Part shown: piece after piece, positions 3,259 through 62,757 of the stretch | Numbering within the stretch: position 1 is the stretch's first letter | Layout: each line of letters begins with the position of its first letter | NCBI RefSeq assembly: GCF_001282785.1 | Contig: NZ_CVUA01000001.1 | Span: 2,356,001-2,420,000 of the forward strand | Direction of reading: 5' to 3' | DNA: 64,000 nt | From: Halolamina sediminis | GTDB lineage: Archaea > Halobacteriota > Halobacteria > Halobacteriales > Haloferacaceae | Notes under the pieces: generated by a model | What the model was told of the DNA's origin: nothing | Database searches by the model: none | Seen by the model: the letters and a program-made list of their open reading frames with translations, nothing else | Program-made: the position numbers and the translations under genes

Positions 3259-3436
3259 CTTGATCGGGGGGTTGGTCGTTGTGGGTTAGGAACTACCGGA
3301 TGCCGGCGAAACGGTGGGGTTTCGGGGTCGTGAGTGTTCGATCGGAGTTGTGTTCGGGAGTTCGTCGGTATTGTCGACAGCTCTCGCGACCGCGACAGCA
3401 CCTCTATCGTTGGCAACTGGAACAGCGACGACAACC

Positions 3437-3733
3437 GCAACAGCATCTCGACGCGAGACCACTTGTGACCGCAGTGCGCCGGACACACGGTCCGGCGCAG
3501 CGCCGAGTCCCCACCCCTCCCCCCGCCGGCGCCACCGTGGCGCCGGCGAGGCGTCCACCGCCACCGCACCGCGGTCACTGTCGGCGCGAAGCGTTCGCGG
3601 CTCTGTCCGCGAGCCAGCGCGAGGGACGACTGAGTGAACGCAGTGAACGAAGGAGTCAGCTGGGGAGGTCTGTGGACTGTGCGGGGCGGCGCGGTACAAG
3701 TGGCCTAGCAACGAGCTGCTGTTGCTGTCGCGG
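3437..3733. repeat. Dispersed intergenic element, copy 1
   Basis: This fills most of the gene-free stretch 3259-3812. The left end (about 3437-3472) contains CAGCATCTCG...GACCACTTGTGACCGC. The right end (about 3691-3733) is its near inverted copy, ACAAGTGG...CGAGCTGCTGTTGCTGTCGCGG. Inside are three structured parts. One is the hairpin GCGCCGGAC/GTCCGGCGC, followed by a C-rich strip. The second is a perfect 11-pair hairpin, GCCGGCGCCAC/GTGGCGCCGGC. The third is the conserved strip CTGTGGACTGTGCGGGGCGG. The sequence left of it (about 3350-3437) holds degenerate repeats of the end motif. The same layout occurs at 31.8, 37.2 and 62.3 kb. No coding potential is supported. Confidence 0.85.
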
Positions 3734-3812
3734 TCGCAGTGCTCGACGATCGAAAACGCCCCAACGGCGAGCATAACGCCACTCAAGCAAACCGAACCAC
3801 TCCCCAAACGAG

Positions 3813-31736: not shown

Positions 31737-31905
31737 GGGTTAGTGGTGCCCAGGCACCCTATTTCGGAGGCAACATCTCGGTCGTTGGTAACTGAGACAG
31801 CACCCGCGACAGCAACAGCATCTCGATGCTAGACCACTTGTGACTGCAGGGTGCCGGGCACGAGGCCCGGCACAGTCCCGAGTCCCCACCCCTCCCCCCG
31901 CGAGC

Positions 31906-31962
31906 GTCGACGAGAATCGAAGATTCTCGGCTGCCAACCAGAACGCTTCGCGTTCTGGTGAC
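31906..31962. mobile_element. Double-hairpin module inside element copy 2
   Basis: 57 bases: GTCGA-CGAGAATC-GAA-GATTCTCG, centre GCTGCCAA, CCAGAACGC-TTC-GCGTTCTGG, end TGAC. Both stems are perfect with 3-base loops. Confidence 0.85.
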
Positions 31963-32034
31963 GCCGACCGTTGGCGCTCGCGAGGCGTCCACCACCACCG
32001 CACCGCGGTCGCTGTCGGCGCGCGACGTGAGCAG

Positions 32035-32090
32035 GGCGAGACCTTCGGTCTCGCTGGCAGTGCGGGCGACGCGTGGGTCGCCCGCACGAC
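32035..32090. mobile_element. Second, more divergent double-hairpin module in copy 2
   Basis: Stem GGCGAGACC-TTC-GGTCTCGC(T), centre TGGCAG, then stem TGCGGGCGAC/GTCGCCCGCA around GCGTGG, ending CGAC. It has the same plan as the other modules but a longer second loop. The other element copies have a different single hairpin at this spot. Confidence 0.6.
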
Positions 32091-32360
32091 GCCTCCGTGG
32101 GCGAACGAGCGCGCGAGGTCCTCGCGAGTGAACCGAGCGAGGGCACGAGAGAGCTTGCTCTCTCGGAGGACGAGCGAACGGACGTGAGCGACCGAGTCGG
32201 CTGGGGAGAGCTGTGGGCTGTGCGGGGCGGTGCGGTCACAAGTTGCCCTGCTCACTCCGCGGTGACGTTCGCGATTGTAGTCGTCGACGACACCCGGAAA
32301 CAGCAACCTCTCCTCTCACCTATTCGCCAAACCCGTCCGCTCGCGGTTCACTCCGCTCAC

Positions 32361-37170: not shown

Positions 37171-37400
37171 GCGTGAAGGTGTGGTTGCGGTGGAAGCGTC
37201 GCCGCCAACGCGCGAGCGAGTGAAACGAGCGAGCGCCGGCGGCGACGGGGAGGTGCGGGGACTCGGCACTGCGCCGTAGACGAGAGCCTCCGGCTCTCGT
37301 TTGCCAATCAGAAATCTCCGATTTCTGATGACGGACCTCGTGTCCGGCGCACCGCGGTTACAAGTGGTCGACGAACGAGATGCTGTCGCGGTTGCCGTCT
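37171..37400. repeat. Dispersed intergenic element, copy 3 (truncated, opposite orientation)
   Basis: The gene-free stretch 37065-37529 holds a copy in reverse orientation. On the minus strand it reads CGCGACAGCATCTCG..GACCACTTGTAACCGCGG, then GTGCGCCGGACACGAGGTCC. This is interrupted by the module at 37276-37332 and resumes GGCGCAGTGCCGAGTCCCC. A GTCGCCGCC/GGCGGCGAC stem and CTTCCACCGCAACCAC follow. The right half of the element is missing. Beyond 37400, degenerate repeats of ACTGAGAC..CGACAGC-type sequence continue toward uvrC. Confidence 0.8.
37276..37332. mobile_element. Double-hairpin module cleanly inserted in element copy 3
   Basis: 57 bases: GTAGACGAGAGCC-TCC-GGCTCTCGT, centre TTGCCAA, TCAGAAATC-TCC-GATTTCTGA, end TGAC. 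It splits the element hairpin between GGTCC and GGCGC (minus strand). Copy 1 has GGTCCGGCGC uninterrupted, so the empty site is known and no target duplication is seen. Confidence 0.88.
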
Positions 37401-37529
37401 CAGTAGGCAAAATCGTGGTGTTGTCGGGGTCTCAGTAGCCAACGATCGAGGCGCTGTTGCAGTCGCGATCCTGTACACCGACGGCCGAGGGCGTCACGCT
37501 CAAACGCGCCGACACCCTACCCCGGATAG

Positions 37530-39377
37530 ATGGACGCGAGCGAGGTCCGAGCGCGCGCCGGCGACCTCCCTCGGGAGCCGGGCGTCTACCAGTTCCTCGA
37601 ACGCGGCGACGACGCCGACACGGTTCTCTACGTCGGCAAGGCCGTCGACATCCGCGACCGCGTGCGCTCCTACGCGGACCACCGAGGCGGCGAAGCCGCC
37701 TCGAGCCGCGCGAACGGCGAAGCCGTGAGCGGACCGCGGAGCGACCGCATCCGGAAGATGGTCGGGCGCGCCGACGCGATCGACACCGCGGTCACGGACA
37801 CCGAGACCCAGGCCCTCCTACTGGAGGCGAACCTGATCAAGCGCCACCAGCCGCGGTACAACGTCCGGCTGAAGGACGACAAGTCCTACCCGCTGGTCCA
37901 GCTCACCAACCACGAGTACCCCCGAATCGAGATCACCCGCGACCCCGACGACGCAGCGACCGTTTTCGGTCCCTACACCCGGAAGGACGAGGTCGAGACG
38001 GTCGTGAAGGCGATCCGGGAGACGTACGGGCTGCGGGGCTGTTCGGACCACAAGTTCCGCAACCGCGACCGGCCCTGCCTCGACCACGAGATGGGGCTCT
38101 GCTCGGCGCCCTGCGTCGACGCGATCGGCGCGGAAAGCTACGCGGAGGACGTGTCGAGCGCGATCCGCTTCTTCGAGGGCGAAACCGGGATCCTCGCCGA
38201 CCCGCTGCGGCGGGAGATGGAGCAGGCCGCCCAAGCGGAGGAGTTCGAGCGTGCCGCCAACGCCCGGGATCGCCTCGAAACGGTCGAGGCGTTCCACGGC
38301 GAGGGCGGCGAGGCGGTCTCCTCGCCCGGAAGCCGTCGGGAACTCGACGTGCTCGCGGCGGTCGTCGAGGGCGGCGACGCGACTGTCGCGCGGCTCCACG
38401 CCGACGCCGGCCAGCTCGTCGACCGCTCGCGACACCGCCTCGACGCGCCCGAGGGCGAGGACCGCGTCGCGAGCCTGCTGTCGGCGTTCCTGACGCAGTA
38501 CTACGCCGAACGGGAACTGCCCGACGCGATCCTGCTCTCCGAGCGGCCGGACGACGAGGACGTGCTCGGCTGGCTCGAGAGCGCGGGCGTCGACGTGTCG
38601 GTGCCCGGCGCGGGCCGTGAGGGGAAGCTCGTCGAGTTGGCGCTCAAGAACGCCCGCAGCGGCGTCGGCGGCGCGGACGACCCCGTGGGCGCGCTCGGGC
38701 AGGCGCTCGACATTCCCCGCCCGGAGCGCATCGAGGGGTTCGACGTGAGCCACGCCCAGGGGAAGGCGGTCGTCGGCAGCGACGTGTGTTTCGTCGACGG
38801 CAGCGCCGAGAACTCCGACTACCGCCGGAAGAAGCTGCCCGAACGCAACGACGACTACGCCAACATGCGCGAACTGGTGCGCTGGCGGGCCGAACGCGCC
38901 GTCGACGGGCGGGACGACCGGCCCGACCCGGACCTGCTGCTGATCGACGGCGGCGAGGGACAGTTGGGCGCCGCGATGGACGCGCTCGACGAGGTGGGCT
39001 GGGAGGTGCCCTGTATCGCGCTGGCGAAGTCAGAGGAGTTGGTGGTCACGCCCGACGGCGTCGCCGAGCGAAGCTCGGCTGCCAGTCAGGCGTCGCCTGA
39101 CAACGTCGAGCGGTTCGACGACGACGCGTCCCACCTCCACCTGCTCCAGCGCGTCCGCGACGAGGCCCACCGCTTCGCGGTCCAGTACCACCAGAGCGTG
39201 CGCGACGAGGTGGCGACGGCGCTCGACGAAGTCGAGGGCGTCGGCCCCGAGACGCGCAGACGGCTGCTCCGCCGGTTCGGCTCGATCGACGCGATCCGCG
39301 ATGCCGGCGAGCCGGCGCTTCTGGACGTGGAGGGCGTCGGGCCGACGACCGCCGAGCGGATCGACCGGCGGCTGTAA
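37530..39377 (+). CDS. uvrC: Excinuclease ABC subunit C, with two palindrome-encoded inserts
   Basis: A 615-residue nucleotide-excision-repair nuclease. The GIY-YIG domain is at about 10-100 ([29 protein letters not shown]), followed by [23 protein letters not shown] (shown as key parts), [21 protein letters not shown] with the Cys cluster, and a UVR motif near 230-260. The RNase H-like nuclease half has [18 protein letters not shown] and [15 protein letters not shown]-terminal helix-hairpin-helix pair follows. Two segments absent from usual UvrC are [18 protein letters not shown] (about residues 50-67) and [14 protein letters not shown] (511-524). Both are encoded by paired hairpins. The frame stays open, so the protein is probably functional. 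Confidence 0.95.
37681..37734. mobile_element. Probable double-hairpin insert in uvrC (first)
   Basis: GAGGCGGC-GAA-GCCGCCTC, an 11-base spacer, then ACGGC-GAA-GCCGT. It adds about 18 codons between SYAD and PRSDRI, which adjoin in typical UvrC. The centre differs from the GGCTGCCAA consensus, so membership in the module family is less certain than for 39060. Confidence 0.55.
39060..39101. mobile_element. Double-hairpin module in frame in uvrC (second)
   Basis: 42 bases, exactly 14 codons and aligned to the codon frame: GTCG-CCGAGC-GAA-GCTCGG, centre CTGCCA, GTCAGGC-GTC-GCCTGAC. It encodes [14 protein letters not shown]. The ends and centre match the other modules. Confidence 0.8.
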
Positions 39378-58228: not shown

Positions 58229-58400
58229 CGTCGGCCGCGAGCGAACGAAGTGAGCGAGCGGGCCGAGGAGGCCCCGAACGGGGCCGACGACGGCTTTTGT
58301 CGCCAGAAATCTCCGATTTCTGGCTGCTAACCAGAAGCCGGAGGCTTCTGGTGATGGCCGAGCTTTTGCAAGGGCCCTCCGGGGCCCGCAGCAAAAGGTC
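58229..58400. repeat. Hairpin-rich block holding a double-hairpin module
   Basis: GTCGTCGGCC...GGCCGACGAC forms a long outer stem around GAGCGAACGAAGTGAGCGAGCG. The module at 58299-58355 follows, then GGGCCC-TCC-GGGGCCC-type arms. It separates the propeller lipoprotein gene from deoC (convergent) and may also end transcription. Confidence 0.7.
58299..58355. mobile_element. Double-hairpin module between propeller gene and deoC
   Basis: 57 bases: GTCG-CCAGAAATC-TCC-GATTTCTGG, centre CTGCTAA, CCAGAAGCC-GGA-GGCTTCTGG, end TGAT. Both stems are perfect. The GAAATC arm is shared with the modules at 37276 and 62407. Confidence 0.85.
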
Positions 58401-62239: not shown

Positions 62240-62665
62240 ACTGAAACGGCGACAGCGACAGTAGCTCGATCTTCGGGAACTGCAACAGCAACCGCGACAG
62301 TAACAGCAGCTCGATCGTTGGCAACTTGCGACCGCAGTGCGCCGGGCCTCGTGCCCGGCGCAGCAGCGAGTCCCCACCCCTTTCCCCGCGGCCGGCGACG
62401 ATCACCGTCATCAGAAATCGGAGATTTCTGATTGGCAGACGAGAGCTTTGCTCTCGTCGACGGCCGCGAGGCGTCCACCGCGACCGCACCGCGGTCGCTG
62501 TCGGCGCGAAGCAGGAGCGCCCCTTGTGGGCGCGACCGGCGCGAGGGACGACCGACTGAACGTAGTGAAGGAGGGAGTCGGCTGGGGAGGTCTGTGGGCT
62601 GTGCGGGGCGGTGCGGTCACAAGTGGTCGACGAACGAGCTGCTGTTGCTGTCGCGGTCGTCGACC
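62240..62665. repeat. Dispersed intergenic element, copy 4 (most complete)
   Basis: This fills most of 62191-62757. The left part carries two to three degenerate repeats (GACAACTGAAACGGCGACAG..., CTGCAACAGCAACCGCGACAG...). The hairpin GCGCCGGGC/GCCCGGCGC follows, then the C-rich strip. A GCGGCCG/CGGCCGC stem holds the module at 62407-62461. After it come GAGGCGTCCACCGCGACC.., a small GCGCCC/GGGCGC hairpin, CTGTGGGCTGTGCGGGGCGG and the right end ACAAGTGGTCGACGAACGAGCTGCTGTTGCTGTCGCGG. No gene is visible; 62666-62757 holds nothing else recognised. Confidence 0.85.
62407..62461. mobile_element. Double-hairpin module inside element copy 4
   Basis: 55 bases: GTCATCAGAAATC-GGA-GATTTCTGA, centre TTGGCAG, ACGAGAGC-TTT-GCTCTCGT, end CGAC. 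Its first 31 bases equal those of the 37276-37332 module read on the minus strand, while the second loop differs. Confidence 0.88.
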
Positions 62666-62757
62666 CCGTCAGCTATGACGTTCCAGAAATCAGCCGGAAG
62701 CACGCCCACTACCCCGATCCACTTTTTGTTTCGAACATCGACCGCCCCTACGAACCA

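Follow-up and report, generated by a model that had tools for sequence, protein, structure and literature searches.

The stretch analyzed here (the window, 64,000 nucleotides of the Halolamina sediminis genome) contains a uvrC gene whose product matched the UvrC family model NF011262 with a score of 1002.6 bits (Table 1). A sequence-only reading of this DNA had described a palindromic module of 42 nucleotides, or 14 codons, read in frame within the gene. The assignment to UvrC and the reading frame both stood, but the length did not, as comparison with the DNA of Halolamina pelagica and H. salifodinae defined an insert of 45 nucleotides. In the uvrC frame the insert reads GTC GCCGAGCGAAGCTCGGC TGCCA GTCAGGCGTCGCCTGAC AAC, that is, two perfect 7-bp hairpins with TGCCA between them, and its exact boundaries can shift by a few bases, as GTC and GAC are repeated on either side. 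The 39-mer core has one exact occurrence in the window (0 of 100 shuffles). As a single strand the insert folds into its two hairpins (DNA energies), with z-scores of -3.7 (DNA) and -3.9 (RNA) and none of 200 shuffled sequences equally stable. The same gene has a second insert in the part encoding the GIY-YIG domain; it contains a 9-bp hairpin of a palindrome type unlike that of the element studied here and is missing from every relative compared, the congener G002 included.

Table 1. Features of the uvrC locus, related elements in the window, and genes carrying copies of the repeat (positions are those of the window).
Feature	Position	Strand	Evidence
uvrC host gene, 615 aa	37530..39377	+	ORF; NF011262/TIGR00194 above cut-off
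In-frame palindromic insert in uvrC, 45 nt, 15 aa, residues 511-525	39060..39104	+	Gap in 32/33 haloarchaeal UvrC; empty sites L060, L061; covariance model R1, 32.1 bits
5' CGTC tag, foot of hairpin 1	39059..39062	+	Sequence; tag counts over 85 elements
Hairpin 1, GCCGAGC-GAA-GCTCGGC	39063..39079	+	Hairpin scan; single-strand folding
Linker TGCCA, conserved	39080..39084	+	Recurs in family copies
Hairpin 2, GTCAGGC-GTC-GCCTGAC	39085..39101	+	Hairpin scan; single-strand folding
3' tag AACG (CGTT on opposite strand; most copies GACG)	39102..39105	+	Sequence; tag counts
Second uvrC insert, residues 51-68, hairpin CGAGGCGGCGAAGCCGCCTCG at 37683-37703	37680..37733	+	Unique to own genome among compared relatives
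Intergenic member, 57 nt, within larger mosaic repeat	31906..31962	+	R1, E 7.9e-21
Probable member, other stems, linker TGCCA on minus strand	32036..32087	-	Hairpin scan only; not reported by R1
Intergenic member 5' of uvrC, 57 nt	37276..37332	+	R1, E 2.3e-20
Intergenic member, linker TGCTA	58299..58355	+	R1, E 1.8e-19
Intergenic member, inverted relative to surrounding mosaic repeat	62407..62461	-	R1, E 9.7e-20
Related mosaic intergenic repeat; module absent, natural empty site at about 3526-3530	3386..3740	+	
Gene copies, own genome: uvrC, dapA, VOC-family gene, two S9 peptidases, MFS transporter, dapF, yfcE, agl23-like gene, GNAT gene			
Gene copies, other genomes (1): hydantoinase, tyrosyl/tryptophanyl-type tRNA synthetase (tyrosyl by eye), oligopeptide ABC ATPase, M20 peptidase			
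Gene copies, other genomes (2): ArsA-type ATPase, amidohydrolase, rhodanese, DJ-1 family, sodium-solute symporter (two tandem copies)			
Gene copies, other genomes (3): ABC exporter, GH3 glycosidase, molybdopterin oxidoreductase, Sir2			

When the UvrC proteins of 33 haloarchaeal loci were aligned, 32 of them had nothing corresponding to residues 511-525. This is the gap that the sequence-only reading had anticipated, and since that reading would have taken a homologous segment in most haloarchaeal UvrC proteins as the sign of a normal loop, the reading as an insertion survives the comparison. In H. pelagica and H. salifodinae, the nearest named relatives (92% and 91% identical in the alignment), nothing fills the gap; the H. 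pelagica protein, for instance, continues across the site as TPDG-VERFDDD, and for each species the DNA differs by 45 nt. The UvrC of Haloarcula pellucida (L089) has an unrelated 18-residue insert at the site, around its residue 488, in which inverted repeats are weak. By contrast, the uvrC of congener G002 contains all 45 bases of the insert unchanged, despite flanks that are 90.0% identical (78.7% at third codon positions). The probability of an identical 45-mer under simple drift is ~0.009, and the identity within diverged flanks implies that the insert is older than the split of the two lineages or was exchanged between them; constraint, gene conversion or recent transfer are possible causes.

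The sequence-only reading had also proposed a surface loop as the location of the insert, and the AlphaFold2 model placed it in a low-confidence loop (pLDDT < 50, residues 510-523) between a strand (504-506) and a helix (534-558); the second uvrC extension likewise had pLDDT values below 50. Solved UvrC nuclease domains (PDB homologues) also vary at this place. In the reading that we favor, the RNase H-like nuclease domain tolerates the insert, which lengthens one of its variable loops. It is feasible that the insert has instead been domesticated, with the 15-residue loop functional in UvrC or the peptide kept as useful in high salt, as might be suggested by the conservation of 45 of 45 bases in G002 against 79% at third codon positions elsewhere and by the recurrence of the peptide type in many proteins. 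We regard this as unlikely, as most relatives have no uvrC insert, the proteins that host the peptide are unrelated, and the loop is predicted to be disordered.

The sequence-only reading had called the insert a module, and the window provides grounds for that word. A BLAST search of the H. sediminis genome found two close copies of the insert, both in other genes, and a paired-hairpin scan of the window identified four more double hairpins of like design (R1 E-values of 1e-19 to 1e-21, Table 1) and a probable fifth. A covariance model (R1) was built from the four intergenic window copies, such a model being needed because the stems vary and exact patterns miss most copies. In the genome of 2.84 Mb, R1 gave at least 102 matches at E<=1 with both strands counted, representing at least ~60 sites; this is a lower bound, as scores cover only 150 of the 733 candidates, and the matches listed did not include the uvrC copy. 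Lower bounds apply to all the counts given here, the copies having come from searches and single stretches.

Members of the family are 45-59 nt long and share the architecture CGTC-[hairpin]-TGCCA-[hairpin]-GACG, with stems of 7-10 bp and the consensus (C)GTC-GMCGAG..CTCGKC-TGCCA-RYCAG..CTGRY-GAC(G). Hairpin 1 mostly starts with a G-C pair and hairpin 2 with A-T or G-C. The linker offers a CCA end to one hairpin and reads TGGCA, as seen from its own strand, for the other. An exact CGTC tag was present at 94 of 170 ends, and CGTT (25), CATC (14) and TGTC (12) are each one base off. Across 126 aligned R1 matches (111 distinct), 95.8% of stem positions formed standard pairs, and two-sided changes occurred in 22 of 23 stem pairs, in 563 cells vs 182 +/- 18 in shuffles, a figure that is inflated by an alignment fitted to the structure and by the entry of some copies on both strands, although slid controls were still far lower. 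One-sided changes within the two stems amounted to about two dozen cells, and changes to G-U were very few. Judged from the aligned copies, this scarcity of one-sided and G-U changes would not be expected of RNA helices and fits a palindrome that is maintained on both strands of DNA.

R1 matches were found in all seven genomes of the genus (7 to 94 each) and some in most other Haloferacaceae, and many further genera contain single copies with the same tags and linker. Among named species, a member adjoins uvrC in Halorubrum halophilum and H. coriense, and a weakly matching one does so in H. trapanicum. Two genomes of other families, G045 and G053, had unusually many matches (47 and 59, respectively). 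When genomes were sampled across the phylum, R1 matched 12 of the 15 from Halobacteriales vs 3 of the 85 others; the latter three have a low GC content, and their double hairpins are different and AT-rich. About a dozen such AT-rich double hairpins, weakly matched by the model, were seen in four stretches (L263-L266) of two low-GC genomes outside the Halobacteriales (G084 and G101). Viral contigs searched with two patterns gave no match.

Examination of ten genomes identified 28 copies of the element within coding genes, all with a length divisible by three and all in one codon phase; the host genes (Table 1) are backed by family models. An automatic coding call, which considered codon-position GC and ORF length only, was applied to 85 elements and classed 21 as coding, of which 21 were in phase 0 and had a length of 3n, whereas 39 of the 64 non-coding elements were of such a length. 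The final count of 28 was reached by dropping one of these 21, L143, whose ORF had no Pfam match, and adding eight copies by inspection. Under the length distribution of the non-coding elements, the probability that 21 of 21 copies would be 3n is ~3e-5 (~0.007 for the ten copies of the H. sediminis genome alone), to be read with the sample being skewed to the 45-nt form, as a hairpin-1 pattern found some of the members. The copies within genes encode a short hydrophilic peptide of the type DERSSSASQTQSDD, located in a loop.

Congeners provided empty sites for the copies in dapA, dapF, the MFS transporter gene, yfcE and uvrC. The dapA gene is filled at the same point in H. sediminis (L013) and in G003 (L187) and empty in five other congeners, and the loop of hairpin 2 is inverted between the two filled copies (GAA against TTC). 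The empty sites are flanked by GTC/GAC on both sides with no clear target duplication; a fixed 9-bp duplication, which we considered for uvrC, yfcE and dapA, was dropped because the sites were inconsistent. These observations bear on whether the uvrC insert might be an ordinary, lineage-specific loop extension with no link to mobile elements. The insert does sit in a loop, and other haloarchaeal UvrC proteins carry unrelated loop extensions without strong palindromes; we rejected the proposition that all loop inserts of haloarchaeal UvrC are palindromes, as most are not. However, the same double hairpin and peptide occur in more than 20 unrelated genes and ~50 non-coding sites, and the covarying stems and clean empty sites contradict an ordinary extension, a reading that we consider refuted by the dispersed copies and retain as barely credible.

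That the copies in genes are in frame may have a simple explanation. In the coding sequences examined, CGTC had its GTC in codon phase in 532 of 612 instances, as did GACGTC in 38 of 40. Based on this composition, entry at CGTC/GTC would place an element in phase 0 in roughly 87% of cases with no special device, and frameshifting insertions would presumably be removed by selection. In-frame placement would thus require no device of its own, because CGTC is already phased in most instances in GC-rich haloarchaeal genes and frameshifts would be lost. In the copies examined, frame 1 was free of stops on both strands, so that orientation matters less, as in a DJ-1 family gene (L228) which we had considered as a counterexample: the element there has the opposite orientation in the gene, yet is still in phase 0.

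Outside genes, 17 of 33 intergenic or mixed copies matched the flanks of one mosaic repeat in a crude motif test, six of them sharing one orientation and 11 having the opposite one. This larger repeat, which has palindromes of its own and often hosts the module in either orientation, was seen in the window at 31771-32260, 62250-62670, 3386-3740 and in part of 37247-37404, and may be a PATE-like element; the related repeat at 3386-3740 lacks the module and thereby offers a natural empty site. There were also tandem arrays of two or three modules with GAC-GTK junctions (L022 1501-1657, L048 1539-1712, L045, L051 and L142), and one such string lies in frame inside the sodium-solute symporter gene.

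That many copies are intergenic and that their RNA folds stably raises the question of whether the family is an RNA element, such as a terminator, an mRNA stability hairpin or a small RNA, selected for its RNA structure; many REPs have been suggested to act as RNA (Di Nocera 2013, PMC3733652). Several results make this very unlikely. An Rfam search of the window at the gathering threshold returned four tRNAs only and no family for the module. The stems change on both sides with G-U intermediates almost absent, the module occurs in both orientations at one mosaic-repeat site as well as within coding genes, and the orthologous dapA copies of two species differ by an inverted loop.

Based on these data, the uvrC insert is very probably a copy of a non-autonomous, REP/RPE-like mobile palindrome of haloarchaea with a target preference for CGTC/GTC. 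The unit consists of two DNA hairpins that are arranged tail-to-tail via TGCCA and carry CGTC-type tags at their outer feet; its insertions lie at GTC/CGTC or beside it, both in genes and, in either orientation, in intergenic repeats. Movement may involve a single-stranded or fold-back DNA step with proteins acting in trans, for which possible candidates are IS200/IS605-type Y1 enzymes encoded on other replicons (since lost or unsampled) or host template switching; another possible route is fold-back with template switching while DNA is replicated or repaired. The inverted dapA loop and the lack of G-T mispairs suit fold-back and template switching, but also suit independent insertion. No direct movement of a copy was seen in the sequences compared.

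With regard to an enzyme, the H. sediminis genome has no intact Y1 transposase, only three partial Y1_Tnp matches of which one has an internal stop, and congeners G001 and G002 gave no Y1_Tnp match. A dedicated transposase was also sought by a Y1_Tnp search of 60 relatives and was rejected, as matches were unlinked to copy number within the genus. It is conceivable, at somewhat less than even chances, that the element is an insertion cargo or an end fragment of IS200/IS605-type transposons (the PATE/SMR class), whose Y1 transposase mobilizes it. An R1-like element lies at most ~250 bp from three of the best 10 Y1 loci (L172, L175 and L177), although those genomes have few copies. At L172, L177/L248 and L250, from other haloarchaeal families, a double hairpin is located ~130-140 bp from an IS200/IS605-type tnpA next to a conserved GCTGTATCCCC motif, L250 having been retrieved because of its R1 match. 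In Haloquadratum, SMR-A repeats insert into palindromes close to the termini of PATEs and IS605-type elements (PMC3119063). Against this, copies are present in G001, G002 and G053, where Y1 gave no match, no R1 match was located near the Y1 loci sampled from H. sediminis, G003, G004, G005 and G006, and none of the Halolamina elements tested flanks a Y1 gene.

The sequence-only reading had likened the insert to the Rickettsia palindromic elements, and the likeness holds in that both are palindromic repeats found between genes and, in frame, inside genes for unrelated proteins. The comparison can be refined, however, as the architecture of the haloarchaeal element is closest to the head-to-head dimer of the CGTC-tagged REPs, a class that includes RPE-4 and RPE-6, rather than to RPE-1, which is longer (PMC3733652) than the 45-59 nt found here in an archaeal host. 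The CGTC-tagged REPs have the tag, stems of 8-9 bp starting with A-T pairs and CCA tails, mostly form head-to-head dimers with the tags outside, lack a dedicated transposase and are described from five bacterial phyla only; R. conorii CGTC-1/-4 are identical with RPE-6/-4, and Neisseria dRS3 also falls in the class (PMC3733652). Like the haloarchaeal element, they form dimers in which CGTC marks the outer foot of both hairpins, their unpaired tails are short and changes in the stems compensate one another, they have intragenic copies, and no dedicated transposase is flanked by the repeats. In contrast, their stems start with A-T where the haloarchaeal hairpin 1 mostly has G-C, their loops are of 4-5 nt rather than mostly 3 nt, and their hosts are bacterial. 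The likeness to CGTC-tagged REPs and RPEs is one of architecture and behavior rather than of compared sequence.

Two other systems are of relevance. The Haloquadratum SMR-A, PATE and IS605-type elements similarly include short haloarchaeal repeats without a transposase that enter palindromes of other repeats (Dyall-Smith et al. 2011, PMC3119063). SMR-A differs in being ~110 bp with terminal inverted repeats, as opposed to 45-59 nt with two internal hairpins, and the main text of PMC3119063 describes no in-frame spread across genes. REPIN/RAYT systems share dispersed inverted pairs of short palindromes and a transposase in trans (PMC3116915), but have a GTAG tag and a RAYT gene, whereas the haloarchaeal tag is CGTC and the H. 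sediminis genome has no intact Y1_Tnp. RepRanger (PMC12306157) covers intergenic palindromes only, and haloarchaea are absent from its text. As the sequence-only reading had noted, the phenomenon appears not to be established in haloarchaea: we found no description of in-frame palindromic repeats in these organisms in the open-access literature, subscription papers and preprints being outside the search.

We see an even chance that haloarchaea carry a counterpart of the RPEs, that is, a transposase-free, order-wide CGTC-tagged double palindrome, with frame 1 open on both strands, that adds one type of hydrophilic peptide to conserved proteins, such that part of the diversity of protein loops would derive from a selfish DNA repeat. 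The in-frame copies bring the archaea into the range of protein-invading palindromic repeats, which have been described in bacteria including Rickettsia, and they provide a clear set of filled and empty sites in culturable relatives as well as a simple, testable account of in-frame inserts based on a phased target and selection. Odd loops in haloarchaeal UvrC, DapA, DapF and tyrosyl-tRNA synthetase may be copies of the element and not adaptations. In bacteria, intragenic copies of CGTC-tagged REPs occur in uvrA, uvrB and other repair genes (PMC3733652); UvrABC genes are thus hit there too, and whether repair proteins are favored hosts can be tested in a second domain.
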